From: an uncultured Alphaproteobacteria bacterium
Lineage (GTDB): Bacteria > Pseudomonadota > Alphaproteobacteria > HIMB59
Reading direction: 5' to 3'
DNA length: 64,000 bases
NCBI GenBank assembly: GCA_902619375.1
Contig: CACNEB010000002.1
Span: 58,693-122,692, forward strand
Shown here: positions 1 through 5,849 of the stretch, piece after piece
How positions within the stretch are numbered: position 1 is the first letter of the stretch
How the letters are laid out: every line of letters begins with the position of its first letter
The notes under the pieces: model-generated
The model's database searches: none
What the model was told of the DNA's origin: nothing
Seen by the model: only the letters and a program-made list of their open reading frames with translations
Translations under genes and position numbers: made by a program

Positions 1-332
1 AGGATGAACTATCTTTATATTTGAATGTTTTTACAGATTATCTTATTAAAACAATATACAAATTAGCTAACTCAACCTCTTCTGGTTCAATAATTTTCAA
101 AGATGTCGACATAAAAGATAATATTTACATAATCAAATCAGAAATTTCTGATAAAAAGTCCTCAGCTAATCTTTATTGGAAAGTAATTGATACAGGTAAG
201 TCTTTTAAGATTATTGATGTAATAGTTGAAAATACCTCTTATTTCGTAACAAAAAAATCAGAGTTTAATAAAATATTGAGAAAAAATAGAGGAAGTTTAA
301 AAGCCTTGGTTAACGAGATTCAAAAAATTTAA
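1..332 (+). CDS. mlaC: MlaC/Ttg2D-like phospholipid-binding ABC transporter auxiliary protein, C-terminal part (truncated by window edge)
   Basis: Frame is open to the window edge upstream of the TTG at 21; contains YWKVIDTGKSFKIIDVIVE...KSEFNKILRKNRGSLKALVNEIQ, typical of the MlaC C-terminus. Confidence 0.7.
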   Translation, partial: DELSLYLNVFTDYLIKTIYKLANSTSSGSIIFKDVDIKDNIYIIKSEISDKKSSANLYWKVIDTGKSFKIIDVIVENTSYFVTKKSEFNKILRKNRGSLKALVNEIQKI

Positions 333-348
333 GGTTAATTCTCAAAAT

Positions 349-425
349 TGGTGGGCCCGGCAGGACTCGAACCTGCGACAACGGCGTTAAGAGCACCGCG
401 TTCTAACCAACTGAACCCCTTAGCC
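349..425 (-). pseudogene. tRNA remnant (att copy): T-arm, anticodon arm and D-arm match the tRNA at 3656-3732, 5' acceptor strand destroyed, anticodon reads CTT
   Basis: Reverse complement ggctaaggggttcagttggttagaacgcggtgctcttaacgccg...cgggcccacca; GGCTAAG cannot pair with CGGGCCC. Confidence 0.85.
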
Positions 426-455
426 TACAAGGCTTTTACATAACACACTCCCTAT

Positions 456-474
456 TTGGCAACGCTGTGGCAAC
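456..474. repeat. Paired TTGGCAACG/GTGGCAACA motifs, 11 bp apart (putative integrase arm-type sites, left end)
   Basis: ttggcaacgctgtggcaac; matching pair with the same spacing at 3571-3590. Confidence 0.6.
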
Positions 475-500
475 ATTCTTAAAAAAGAAAGGATGTTTTT

Positions 501-1451
501 ATGCATATTAGGAAAAGAGGAAAAAAATATTACGTAGTCGTCCAACATAAAACTCAAAGAATACAGAAAAGCTTTGCTGATAAACCTTCCTGTGTTCAAT
601 GGGGAAAAGATATTGAAAAGAAATTAAATCAGTATCGTTCACAATCTATAAATATCAAACTATCTGAACTAATTGATAGATATATAACTGATTTTACTGC
701 ACATAAAAAAGATTGTTTAAATGAGACGAGAAGATGGAGGAAGATTCAAAATGATTATAAATGGCTAGTTAATTTAAGTTTAGCTGATATTGAGTCTCAC
801 CATTTTAATAAATTTAAAAATGAAAGAGTGCATGATGGAAACATAGCTTTTAATAATGATATTACCCTACTCAAGCATTTGTTTAAAAAATGCAATTCTG
901 ATTGGGGATATAATATTCCTAACCCAACTATAAATATTTCCAAAGCTAAGAAAAATCCTTATGGAAGTTTTAGGGAATTATCTAGGAAGGAATATAAATT
1001 ATTATTAAAAAGCAAATATAAGCTATTTTTTCTTATCGGAAGAAATACAGGGATGAGACCATTTTCAGAAATATTAAACCTGAAAATAAATGATTTAGAT
1101 GAATACAATAAATGTTTTTATATTAGACAATCAAAATCAAATAAATCCCGTAGTGTCATTATTTCTGATTTTTTAATTTCTCAGATTAAAAACCATAGAC
1201 CTAATAAATCTACAGAATACTTATGCCCGTTTACAAAAGACGGCATACAGTCATTTTTTAGAAGATTCAAAGAAACAAATAATATTGAGGAATTATCTAT
1301 CTATGATTGCACAAGAAGACAATGTGCAAAAGATGTTGTAAGACGTGGAGTTCCATTACCAGATATAGCAAAAACATTTGGTTGGTCATGGAAAACTGCT
1401 CATGAAATGATTGAATTATATTCGGGAGCAAAGGCTTTGAGAAAATTTTGA
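501..1451 (+). CDS. Tyrosine-type site-specific integrase
   Basis: GMRPFSEILNLKINDLD (Arg I box), RQSKSNKSRSV (Lys), CTRRQCAKDVVRRGVPLPDIAKTFGWSW...IELYSG (box II, Trp, catalytic Tyr); lies next to a tRNA att copy. Confidence 0.85.
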   Translation: MHIRKRGKKYYVVVQHKTQRIQKSFADKPSCVQWGKDIEKKLNQYRSQSINIKLSELIDRYITDFTAHKKDCLNETRRWRKIQNDYKWLVNLSLADIESHHFNKFKNERVHDGNIAFNNDITLLKHLFKKCNSDWGYNIPNPTINISKAKKNPYGSFRELSRKEYKLLLKSKYKLFFLIGRNTGMRPFSEILNLKINDLDEYNKCFYIRQSKSNKSRSVIISDFLISQIKNHRPNKSTEYLCPFTKDGIQSFFRRFKETNNIEELSIYDCTRRQCAKDVVRRGVPLPDIAKTFGWSWKTAHEMIELYSGAKALRKF

Positions 1452-1578
1452 TATTTGATATTTTAATAATTTAATCTTTCAACTAAATTCATCTTAAAAT
1501 CCCTCCAAATTTCTCAAAACTCTAATATGGAAATCTTTGAAATTCTAGTTTAAAAATGAAAAAAAAGGGATTAGGAAT

Positions 1579-1689
1579 ATGAGTTTATTAAAAGCTCTAG
1601 TTAATATCATTAAGGAATGGGTCTTATCTATTAGTCCTTTTTTTTCAATAAATCAAAAATCAATATACCTGATAGGTGGGGGAAGCTAA
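1579..1689 (+). CDS. Possible small ORF (36 aa, MSLLKALVNIIKEWVLSISPFFSINQKSIYLIGGGS) directly upstream of the dehydrogenase gene
   Basis: ATG with AGGA-like sequence upstream; ends just before the likely ATG (1691) of the next gene; not in the ORF track. Confidence 0.25.
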   Translation: MSLLKALVNIIKEWVLSISPFFSINQKSIYLIGGGS

Positions 1690-2701
1690 AATGACAAATT
1701 CAAAAGTCATAGGAGTAATCGGCTTAGGGAATGCCGGATTACCAATCTTAAATAATTTAAATAAAACAAAAAAATATCAATTGATTGCTTATGATATTGA
1801 TGAACATAAACTAAATCTTCTTCCTGAAAATATTACAAGAGCATCTTCTATTAAAGAGTTAGCTCAAAAATGTCATGCCACCATAACTTGTTTGCCAAAA
1901 CCTGAACATGTCTTGCAAGCTGTTGAAGGAAAAGAAGGGTTATTGGAAAATGCCTCACCAGGAATGGTTTGGATTGATACTTCTACTACTGACTTTAAAC
2001 AATCTCAAGAATTAGAAAAAAAAGCATTAACCAATAATGTATCCATGTTAGAAGCTACTTTGACAGGAGGGGTTCATGCATTGCAAAATAATAATATGGT
2101 TAGTTTAGCAGGAGGCAATAAAGAGATTTTTAATGAGTGGAAAGAATTAATACAAGATGCAATTGGTGAGGTTGTTGTGCTTTGTGGAGATATCGGAGCA
2201 GGTGCGATTGCGAAGGTAGTTTCTAACATGCTTGCTTTCACTAATATGGTGGCAGCTTCGGAATGTATGATGATTGCAAAAAAAGCAGGCTTAGACTTAG
2301 AAAACTTTTTTGATGCCATCAGAGTTTCTGCTGGTAATTCATTTGCATGGGAAACAGTTGTGCCACATATTTTTAATCAAAAATATGAAGCGGGGTTCAC
2401 AATGGACTTAGCATGTAAGGATATGAAGTTATGTTATTTATTAGGTGAGCATTTAAAAATTCCATTAGATTTACATATGGAAGTGAAAAAAAAGATGGAG
2501 AAAGCCAAATCTCAATATGGAGATAATGAAGGATGTTATGTATATCCACGAACTCTTGAAGATGAATTAAATGAGCCTTTATCTCTAAATGGATGGGATA
2601 ATTGGGGTTATGACATAGAGGTAGTAGATGGCTCAATAGTTGTTAAACACAAGAATCGACCTGAATCTAAACACCCTCAATACAACACACAGTCACAATA
2701 G
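1676..2701 (+). CDS. NAD(P)-dependent oxidoreductase, 3-hydroxyisobutyrate/beta-hydroxyacid dehydrogenase family (likely start ATG at 1691)
   Basis: GVIGLGNAGLPILNNL Rossmann motif, LEATLTGGVHALQNNNMVSLAGG substrate motif, GAGAIAKVVSNMLAFTNMVAASE catalytic-Lys helix; GGGGGAAG RBS before ATG 1691. Confidence 0.85.
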   Translation: MGEAKMTNSKVIGVIGLGNAGLPILNNLNKTKKYQLIAYDIDEHKLNLLPENITRASSIKELAQKCHATITCLPKPEHVLQAVEGKEGLLENASPGMVWIDTSTTDFKQSQELEKKALTNNVSMLEATLTGGVHALQNNNMVSLAGGNKEIFNEWKELIQDAIGEVVVLCGDIGAGAIAKVVSNMLAFTNMVAASECMMIAKKAGLDLENFFDAIRVSAGNSFAWETVVPHIFNQKYEAGFTMDLACKDMKLCYLLGEHLKIPLDLHMEVKKKMEKAKSQYGDNEGCYVYPRTLEDELNEPLSLNGWDNWGYDIEVVDGSIVVKHKNRPESKHPQYNTQSQ

Positions 2702-2827
2702 AAAGCAGATGATAAATAAATGAGACAAAAAATGGAGCTGAACCTAACAGATTATCTTTTGCTTTTTAAAAAATCGTGATTAGATTTTTTTAAATGAGTA
2801 ATTTTACTAGTAAATTTGCCACACTAG

Positions 2828-2962
2828 ATGTCTACAGAAAGATATGGGGATTGGTTTGAAACAAGAGAAATCGATGACCTTAGTAGATATGAAAAAAATT
2901 TCATTAAACAGAATAAAGGTTATTACAAATTCATAGAGTCAATAAAGAAACTAGATAAATGA
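2828..2962 (+). CDS. Small hypothetical protein (44 aa), overlapping the next ORF by ATGA
   Basis: MSTERYGDWFETREIDDLSRYEKNFIKQNKGYYKFIESIKKLDK; TGA stop overlaps the ATG at 2959; not in the ORF track. Confidence 0.5.
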   Translation: MSTERYGDWFETREIDDLSRYEKNFIKQNKGYYKFIESIKKLDK

Positions 2963-3537
2963 AAACCCTCTTAGCTCTATTGTTATTAATCCCATTTAAT
3001 TTATCTGCAGAAAAGTCAGAGCGAGAGTATTTTGATAAATGGTTTTATGAATATGAAATAGATGATTTTACAGATGTTAAATCACATCTAGTCGAAAACA
3101 GAGCTATGCCTGGTGGGGATAAATTTCTAATTTATTTTAGAGAGCCTTCTGCCATGACAATAAATATAGTATTAAGAAGCAAAACTTGTTACGAAAAATC
3201 AAAACGAAAAGAAATTCCTGTTTTGTTCAGAGTAGATAAAAAAGATGTAATGACTTTCTATATGTATCCAAAAGATGATAACAAAGTTAATGATAGAACA
3301 GATTTGATTTTAGTTCCTAATCATAAAAAAAATCCTGAATTATTTGATATTTTAATGTTTTTATTTGATTTAGCAGATGGTAATAGTTTAAAAGTAAGAG
3401 TTGATGACCCTATATGTAATTATAGGCATGATACAGAGTTTTCTCTTAAGGGGTTTCTGAAAGCCTTCGAGCCAATTTTTGAAATACAATTAAAACAAGC
3501 TAAAGAAGAAATAGATAAAAGAGAAAGTGACTCTTAA
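2959..3537 (+). CDS. Hypothetical secreted protein with signal peptide
   Basis: N-terminal MKTLLALLLLIPFNLSA signal-like segment; no family recognised. Confidence 0.6.
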   Translation: MKTLLALLLLIPFNLSAEKSEREYFDKWFYEYEIDDFTDVKSHLVENRAMPGGDKFLIYFREPSAMTINIVLRSKTCYEKSKRKEIPVLFRVDKKDVMTFYMYPKDDNKVNDRTDLILVPNHKKNPELFDILMFLFDLADGNSLKVRVDDPICNYRHDTEFSLKGFLKAFEPIFEIQLKQAKEEIDKRESDS

Positions 3538-3570
3538 AATATTGAAAAACCTCTTAGCTCTAACTGATTT

Positions 3571-3590
3571 TTGGCAACGATTTGGCAACG
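3571..3590. repeat. Paired TTGGCAACG motifs, 11 bp apart (putative integrase arm-type sites, right end)
   Basis: ttggcaacgatttggcaacg, same period as the pair at 456-474. Confidence 0.6.
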
Positions 3591-3655
3591 CAAATAGTTT
3601 TTTTAATCAAAACGGATATTATGCGTTAAAAAAATTTATTGATATTTAAGGACTT

Positions 3656-3732
3656 TGGTGGGCCCGGCAGGACTCGAACCTGCGACAACGGCGTTATGAG
3701 CACCGCGTTCTAACCAACTGAACTACAGGCCC
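3656..3732 (-). tRNA. tRNA with CAT anticodon (tRNA-Ile2 or elongator tRNA-Met), CCA encoded
   Basis: Full cloverleaf GGGCCTG-TA-GTTC-AGTTGGTTA-GAAC-G-CGGTG-CTCATAA-CGCCG-TTGTC-GCAGG-TTCGAGT-CCTGC-CGGGCCC-ACCA; C4-G69 and C5-G68 favour Ile2. Confidence 0.9.
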
Positions 3733-3797: not shown

Positions 3798-5849
3798 TTA
3801 GGAGTCCATAAATGACTTAAGCTTTTTAGACCTTATAGGATGCTTTAATTTTCTTAGAGCTTTAGCCTCAATTTGTCTAATTCTTTCTCTAGTCACACTG
3901 AATTGCTGACCAACTTCCTCTAGTGTGTGATCAGATGACATCCCAATACCAAATCTCATCCTCAAAACTCTCTCCTCTCTTGGAGTAAGAGTTGAAAGTA
4001 TTTTAGTTGTTGTTTCTCTAAGGTTTAATTGCATAACAGCGTCTTCAGGTATTACAGCATTTTTATCCTCTATAAAGTCGCCAAGAAAACTATCATCATC
4101 ATCACCAATTGGTGTTTCTAGACTTACTGGCTCTTTTGCAATTTTTAAAACTTTTCTAACTTTTTCAATAGGCATTTTTAACCTTAAAGATAGCTCTTCA
4201 GGAGTAGGTTCTCTTCCTAGCTCAAGTATTAATTGTCTACTTGATCTTACAATTTTATTTATAGTTTCAATCATATGAACTGGAATACGAATAGTTCGTG
4301 CTTGATCAGCTATAGATCTAGTAATGGCTTGTCTTATCCACCAAGTTGCATAAGTTGAAAACTTATAACCTCTTCTATACTCGAATTTATCTACTGCTTT
4401 CATTAAGCCTATATTACCCTCTTGAATAAGATCTAAAAACTGTAAACCTCTATTTGTGTACTTTTTTGCAATAGATATTACTAAACGTAAATTTGCTTCA
4501 ATCATTTCTTTTTTTGCTTGATTAGCAGTTCTTTGACCTGATTGTATTTCTCTGACTTTTTCTTTAAATTCAATTGTATTTTGATTTGCTATTTTAGATA
4601 AACTCAAAACTTCTTTATAAATGCTTTTCAATTTCTCACCATTCTTTTGAAAAAAGGCTTTGAATAACTCATCCTTGGAGATCATGTGTTTTTGATAGAG
4701 AGTATAAGTATCCTTAAGATTGTGATGTTTTAAAAATAAATCTCTGCTAATTTTATTATTAGTAGCTAAAGTAAGTAAAGACACCTCTTTTGATTGTATT
4801 TCTTTATTAATTGAATAAAGGTAGGAAATTATTTCCTCAAGTTTATACGGTTTAATTTTAATTTCATTAAAATAATTAAGTATTTCATCTTGGTATTTTT
4901 TCAGCTCTTTAAGAGATTTCGTGTCTGATATTTTTGTAATATTTTTATTTTTTTTTATTTTGGTTATTTTATCGGATAATACAAGAACTCTATCAAGTTT
5001 TTTTAAGATTTCGGGTTTATAAAATTCTTCTATTATTGATATAGAGAAACTCTCATTTTCGATATCCTCTTCATTTGATGTCTCTTGAAGTTTTTCTTTA
5101 TCAACTTCTATACCCTGTTCTTTCATAAGTTGTTGTTTTTCTTTTAAAAGAACTTTCTTTTTATCGTTAATAATTTTTTGGATCTCTTTTCTTTTAGTTG
5201 AATTAGAGTAAGGGTCATTATCTTCATTAAAGTATTCATCAAAATCGACAATCTCTCTGAGATTAATTTCATTTTTTCTAACTTGCTCAATCCATTTTTT
5301 TAAAATATCTATTGATGCAGGACATTCTAAAATTGAATTCATCATTCTATCTAAACCAGACTCTATTCTCTTTGCAATTGCAATTTCACCCTCTCTTGAA
5401 AGCAACTCGACATTGCCCATTTCTTTGAGATACATTCGAACAGGGTCATCGCTTTTTACACCAGTAGATTTTTCTTCTTCTTCTGACTCTTCTTTCGTTG
5501 AAGATATCTCTGATTCTATTGGGGAGGTATAAGCTTTAAATAATTTAAAAAGTTCTTCATCAAGATTTTCAATATAATTTAAAAAATCACTGACAGTAAT
5601 GATAGAATCCTCAATTTTAGAGTAAGACTTTATGTATGTCTTTGCTTTTGCTACTAAGTCTTTGTCAAATTCTTTCGTAATTAAGGCAATAAGTTGATTT
5701 TCATTTTCTTTATATATTAACTCCAGCGGATTATCTTTACTAACTAATTGTTTTTTTGATTTTTGTGTCTTAGGTTTTTTTTTTAAAGTAACTCTTTTTT
5801 TTACTTTATTCTTATGTGTATTTTTTTTTAAAGCTTTTTTTTTTACCAT
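3798..5849 (-). CDS. rpoD: RNA polymerase sigma factor RpoD (sigma-70)
   Basis: [60 protein letters not shown] and region 4 [30 protein letters not shown]. Confidence 0.98.

Follow-up and report, generated by a model that had tools for sequence, protein, structure and literature searches.

The analyzed window is a stretch of 64,000 nucleotides from an uncultured alphaproteobacterium of the HIMB59 lineage (contig CACNEB010000002.1, positions 58,693–122,692, forward strand). Its source genome, designated G000, is 1.11 Mb long and 79% complete and belongs to the same genus as the isolate HIMB59. The window starts within mlaC, and the stop codon of this gene is followed by a fragment of a transfer RNA (tRNA) gene. 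An intact tRNA gene with the anticodon CAT was found on the rpoD side using ARAGORN, and the 3.3 kb between the two tRNA copies contain a tyrosine integrase, a dehydrogenase and the open reading frames (ORFs) orf44 and orf192 (Table 1). The copies form a direct repeat of 69 nt (348–416 and 3655–3723), 68 of which are identical, at a distance of 3307 bp. The sole mismatch, position 390 versus 3697, is the middle base of the anticodon and turns CAT into CTT in the left copy. ARAGORN also called a functional tRNA-Lys (CTT) at approximately 348–418, but this candidate was rejected, since the left copy has no 5' acceptor strand and is therefore not a working tRNA. A first-pass annotation, made from the sequence alone, had described the same locus: a complete CAT tRNA and a 69-bp partial copy as bounds, mlaC-like and rpoD flanks and, in between, one integrase, one dehydrogenase and small unknown ORFs without phage structural, toxin or conjugation genes. 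ARAGORN, the repeat comparison, the alignments and the Pfam search agreed with this description, and no structural, toxin or conjugation genes were found in the element. The best explanation is, with high probability, that this is a compact, tRNA-targeting integrative element working by the mechanism proposed below.

The uninterrupted site, which most relatives have, was found in 36 genomes of the genus, where the mlaC stop codon is followed by 6–21 bp, the intact tRNA gene, 64–70 bp and rpoD (in one of these genomes, where the mlaC match is shorter, the mlaC–tRNA gap is 39 bp). Because of these empty sites, the element is an insertion, and chance or ancestral duplication is excluded as its source. 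The first-pass annotation had proposed looking both for this empty junction and for related elements, and the latter were found at the same site as well. Genome G052 carries a 3.0-kb element with the same repeats and layout, different cargo and no integrase; a 234-bp stretch comprising its right end, the tRNA and the rpoD edge has 95% identity to the window, against ~84% for the core gene. A 6.9-kb element at the same tRNA in G058 (locus L044, 3256–10224) encodes an integrase 53% identical to that of the window, and remnants of a G058-type integrase were found at this site in G045 and G046. G023 has an insert of 0.75 kb on the opposite side of the tRNA. Thus, the mlaC–tRNA–rpoD site is a hotspot. 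The G023 insert (L049, 12007–12755), located between tRNA(CAT) and rpoD, contains a CIA30-like ORF, as judged by eye, and is possibly an old relic.

Table 1. Features of the tRNA-bounded element and its chromosomal flanks (positions refer to the window; att, attachment).
Feature	Position	Strand	Evidence or remark
mlaC, C-terminal part, left chromosomal flank	3..332	+	Pfam MlaC E 9.8e-15
Displaced tRNA fragment, left att site	348..416	-	69 nt, mismatch at 390
Left pair of ~11-bp direct repeats (TTTGGCAACGC TGTGGCAAC), probable integrase arm sites	455..474	.	Repeat comparison
Tyrosine integrase, 316 aa	501..1451	+	Pfam Phage_integrase E 2.7e-14; PHROG integrase E 2.8e-27
bhmT-like (betaine/homocysteine-methyltransferase-like) gene, first 8 codons, left edge of captured chromosomal piece	1469..1492	-	Alignment with HIMB59 G040 (L144) and G009 (L147)
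36-codon ORF 5' of dehydrogenase, putatively coding	1579..1689	+	Region retained in other dehydrogenase copies; no Pfam match
NAD-dependent beta-hydroxyacid dehydrogenase, predicted, 336 aa (3-hydroxyisobutyrate / tartronate-semialdehyde reductase superfamily)	1691..2701	+	NAD_binding_2 E 1.8e-29, NAD_binding_11 E 4.6e-28
dddP-like M24 gene, first 9 codons (MSNFTSKFA), right edge of captured piece	2794..2820	+	Alignment; intact HIMB59 gene matches NCBIfam DddP with E 7.8e-113, under curated cut-off
orf44, small 44-codon ORF	2828..2962	+	3' end recurs in genus (query 1-56 in G005, G051, G060)
Recurrent signal-peptide DNA (MKTLLALLLLIP...), multi-copy in genus, near tRNA genes	2951..2993	+	Start of orf192
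orf192, 192-codon predicted secreted protein	2959..3537	+	ORF
Remnant of the recurrent signal-peptide DNA, 20 bp (19/20)	3543..3562	+	Repeat family D3
Right pair of 11-bp direct repeats (TTTGGCAACGA TTTGGCAACG)	3570..3590	.	Also kept in G052 element
Intact tRNA(CAT), target gene and right att site	3656..3732	-	ARAGORN
rpoD, right chromosomal flank	3798..5849	-	Alignment and ORF

The sequence of the target tRNA(CAT) is identical in nearly all relatives. Judging by the pairs C4-G69 and C5-G68 and by its likeness to tRNA-Ile(GAT), it is probably the AUA-reading tRNA-Ile2 rather than tRNA-Met. The intact tRNA of G058 and of the relics is located on the side of mlaC and the integrase; the window and G052 have the reverse arrangement. 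A 40-bp 5' half of the tRNA, starting at the anticodon loop, remains on the rpoD side in G058 and G045. Since the duplicated block of G058 begins there, the crossover is presumably at the anticodon loop. If this is the case, the CAT/CTT mismatch falls inside the presumed overlap and excision would be hindered; with two att cores differing in the middle of this overlap, the copy in the window may be hard to excise and is possibly locked. The mismatch may have come from the attachment site of the element (attP) or have arisen by later mutation.

Inside both ends of the element, paired direct repeats were found (TTTGGCAACGCTGTGGCAAC on the left, TTTGGCAACGATTTGGCAACG on the right), and the G058 element has TTTGTCGCCA pairs at the corresponding positions. 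Elements at tRNA-Ala, tRNA-Thr and tRNA-Gly (genomes G006, G001, G066, G041 and G053) have repeat pairs of their own with an 11–12-bp period. When a shared paired motif was required within 200 bp of both inner ends, it was present in 7/7 elements and in none of 3000 random pairs taken from the window. Pairs of ~11-bp direct repeats inside each end are also the arm-site architecture of the Tn916 and lambda types. The paired repeats are probable integrase arm-binding sites; unlike the Tn916- and lambda-type sites, they are element-specific in sequence. The arm-repeat 21-mer had one exact match in IMG/VR; this was judged to be due to chance, as it falls within a Dam-methylase-like ORF and the GC-rich phage contig in question has no tRNA. 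In the tRNA-Thr element (L045, 4357–9245), a T7-type single-stranded DNA-binding protein (PF21265) is encoded together with a protein of 505 aa that has no Pfam match and looks polymerase-like by eye. Two loci (L046, 2115–8278, and L047, 6190–13563) contain two complete tRNA-Gly copies each, with a third, partial copy in L047, which suggests an attP carrying a whole tRNA and perhaps tandem integration.

Inspection of the integrase sequence by eye revealed the residues R186, K212, R272, W295 and Y307; the first residue of box II is Asp, not His, in the integrases of both the window and G058. The enzyme is presumably active. Across the order, with the genus itself counted in, 29 of the 162 genomes searched contain distant relatives; of 15 such loci examined in other genera, 8 are no more than 1.5 kb from a tRNA. 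A further search of genome contigs returned pattern matches only and no relative.

The dehydrogenase gene is shared by several species. At the DNA level, the G000 copy is 98.3–99.0% identical to those of four other species (G006, G008, G020 and G062), and the range between pairs of the five species is 97.7–99.8%; rpoD of G000 is 82–83% identical to that of the three species compared. For the pair G006–G020, the identity is 99.2% for the dehydrogenase versus 86.1% for rpoD. Most of the differences are synonymous, suggesting that the gene is maintained in a functional state. Contamination was rejected as a cause of the near-identity, because the copies are on separate contigs, where each is contiguous with flanks unlike those of the others. 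The copies are located at tRNA-CAT, tRNA-Ala(GGC) and tRNA-Arg(TCT). A 2.2-kb segment of G006 (L071, 6586–8859), bounded by a full tRNA-Ala and a fragment of 52 bp, contains the gene but lacks an integrase; its two ends have identical arm repeats. The G008 copy is beside the same tRNA-Ala, with no second tRNA copy, and the unit abuts core DNA. The copies of G020 and G062 are near tRNA-Arg(TCT) or its fragment, together with HAD and SDR genes, and next to the gene in G062 are a tRNA-Arg fragment of 45 bp and a further integrase.

The edges of the captured piece in the window are bhmT-like codons 1–8 on the left, in reverse orientation, and dddP-like codons 1–9 on the right. In HIMB59, which we take to be genome G040, and in G009, the bhmT-like and dddP-like genes adjoin with no dehydrogenase between them. 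In G044, the dehydrogenase is located between these two genes, next to the remains of a third gene. The dehydrogenase has recently spread, and its origin is a chromosomal locus of the HIMB59 group between bhmT-like and dddP-like genes, or one like it. The HIMB59 locus itself (L144, 9494–15413) comprises dddP-like, oxidase and dapA-like genes and two homocysteine-methyltransferase-like genes; in G001 (L145), a 370-codon ORF that appears methyltransferase-like by eye occupies the same intergenic spot. More distant homologues of the dehydrogenase (~80% of residues) are common in SAR11, where they form an operon with a hydratase-like gene and are often near a TctC/TctA-type transporter (operon and transporter names were assigned by eye). 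The best matches of the protein were 3-hydroxyisobutyrate dehydrogenase and tartronate-semialdehyde reductase, with no NCBIfam cut-off reached; it is predicted to oxidize or reduce a small beta-hydroxyacid in an NAD-dependent reaction. A search for the gene in IMG/VR gave no match.

The remaining ORFs of the element, orf44 and orf192, had no Pfam match, and orf192 could not be assigned to a family with PHROGs or NCBIfam either. Among 162 genomes of the order, no relative of orf192 was found except for one weak match confined to the N-terminal half. The start of orf192 belongs to ~40 bp of DNA encoding a signal peptide (MKTLLALLLLIPSLSWG), part of which, with largely the same leucine codons, opens otherwise unrelated ORFs across the genus. 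The signal-peptide query matched in 39 of 52 genomes, with up to six matches per genome. A tRNA was found within the 1.5-kb flanks of 18 of 26 signal-peptide loci versus 1 of 36 control loci of the same genus (Fisher p ~1e-8), although several loci are orthologous, which lowers the actual count of independent cases. When eight signal-peptide clusters were viewed more widely, all of them had a tRNA or transfer-messenger RNA within ~6 kb; the single copy in HIMB59 (L224) has neither within 7 kb. Relics of the sequence were also found at cargo junctions in the window and in G052. This DNA may serve as a junction at which recombination links cargo. The signal-peptide 23-mer was not found in IMG/VR.

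The proposed mechanism is as follows. An attP that includes the larger part of a tRNA(CAT) gene would be recombined by the tyrosine integrase with the chromosomal copy of this gene, the crossover presumably lying at or close to the anticodon loop. Thereby, the tRNA would be regenerated on the rpoD side, the displaced fragment being left on the mlaC side, and the integrase would bind the paired 11-bp repeats as putative arm sites inside each end. Elements with these ends could swap cargo and lose the integrase, and the dehydrogenase, once captured from a HIMB59-group locus, would circulate between elements at different tRNA genes. We infer mobilization in trans and a route between cells. The att repeats, the empty sites, the second element with the same ends and the arm-repeat geometry were all observed directly.

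Several points weigh against this mechanism. A single simple attP model fails to account for the opposite tRNA halves that are regenerated by the two related elements of G000 and G058. Outside the genus, the integrase has only distant, profile-level relatives, and none was found in the viral contigs of IMG/VR with either the integrase alone or a two-sequence alignment. No excisionase was recognizable in the element, and no excised circle was seen. In addition, the dehydrogenase could have moved via ordinary homologous or illegitimate recombination, with tRNA sites as mere landing zones. In its full form, this alternative treats the dehydrogenase as an independent cassette that arrived near tRNA genes by chance, the integrative element being incidental. 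The variable edges of the cassette (bhmT remnants of ~5, 8 and 30 codons), the G044 copy at a non-tRNA locus and the G008 unit without a second tRNA copy are in line with it. However, five of the six copies are near genes or fragments of three different tRNAs, and those of G000 and G006 lie inside tRNA-bounded, arm-flanked segments, so that we regard the independent cassette as conceivable but rather doubtful.

A degraded prophage or phage satellite is a still less likely source. On this reading, a larger phage-derived element would have decayed down to the integrase and the ends and picked up the dehydrogenase in the process. The integrase does fall into a broad group of phage integrases (PHROG phrog_1) and is distantly related to sequences of Mannheimia phages (23.5% identity), and larger elements of the genus bear phage-like genes, namely an endonuclease-VII-like HNH gene, a T7-type single-stranded DNA-binding protein and a T5orf172-domain protein. 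Yet neither the window nor the G058 element contains structural or packaging genes, nothing similar was found in IMG/VR, and the G052 element, with the same ends, is equally small, so that 3 kb looks like a working size and not a single product of decay. Pfam and PHROGs searches of the element revealed no packaging, capsid-size or terminase-related genes. The first-pass annotation had suggested a satellite or a genomic islet; an islet with metabolic cargo is what was found, and the satellite is neither supported nor excluded, given the lack of packaging and capsid genes and of an integrase relative in IMG/VR. Neither the paired repeats, the changed anticodon of the displaced copy, the occurrence of the dehydrogenase at several tRNA sites of other species nor the other compact tRNA elements across the genus were part of that annotation. 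Finally, two tRNA copies and a gene-bearing spacer would also result if the tRNA had been duplicated in tandem in an ancestor and unrelated genes had drifted in between the copies. The 36 relatives with one tRNA and no spacer already refute this scenario, and the integrase adjoining the repeat, the arm repeats at both ends and the different inserts at the same site leave its probability negligible.

Among known systems, the nearest kinds are Islander-type islands, tycheposons and satellites (PMC4383910, PMC10872708, PMC11389934). Like the tRNA-integrated islands of Islander (PMC4383910), the element has a regenerated tRNA and a displaced fragment at its ends, a tyrosine integrase inside near one end and an uninterrupted site in the 36 relatives; it differs in its very small size (3.3 kb), its same-ended relative without integrase and the changed anticodon of the displaced copy. 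With the tycheposons of Prochlorococcus and other marine bacteria, as described in PMC10872708, it shares a streamlined marine host, a tRNA target, a tyrosine recombinase and metabolic cargo, and tRNA-Met(cat) is among the borders reported there. However, the size range given is 4–200 kb, which includes the 6.9-kb relative in G058 but not the 3.3-kb element, and beyond the recombinase none of the tycheposon hallmark genes was identified. The element is thus near the tycheposons, and membership is not claimed, since its size is below the published range. Phage satellites (phage-inducible chromosomal islands and P4-like elements) are likewise compact, integrase-bearing, tRNA-integrated and free of structural genes, but the element has no replication, packaging-redirecting or capsid-remodelling genes and no helper phage is known. 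For the phosphate islands of HIMB59, no tRNA or insertion sequence boundaries were found and homologous recombination was invoked (PMC10734472). Tyrosine recombinases and tRNAs are reported to adjoin a laterally transferred phn operon common to Pelagibacterales and HIMB59 (PMC12416821), so the general route was already known. New here are the minimal size, the integrase-less sibling with swapped cargo and the tracing of one gene via three tRNA sites to a chromosomal locus.

Gene exchange is widespread among streamlined ocean bacteria such as HIMB59, and the vehicles are poorly known. In the present case, the vehicle, its empty site, a cargo-swapped sibling, the type of locus that probably served as donor and several destinations of one gene are all visible in the sequence, and therefore cargo capture and exchange at tRNA hotspots are directly testable. 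Tentatively, and against the odds in our own estimate, the HIMB59 group may possess a modular system in which minimal elements with short element-specific ends (tRNA att site and arm repeats) are mobilized in trans and their cargo is swapped between tRNA sites via shared hinge sequences, of which the ~40-bp signal-peptide DNA would be one. If so, single metabolic genes and secreted proteins would circulate across the genus on carriers of 2–7 kb, some of them without an integrase. Tiny tRNA-hopping elements appear to move single genes between marine bacteria.

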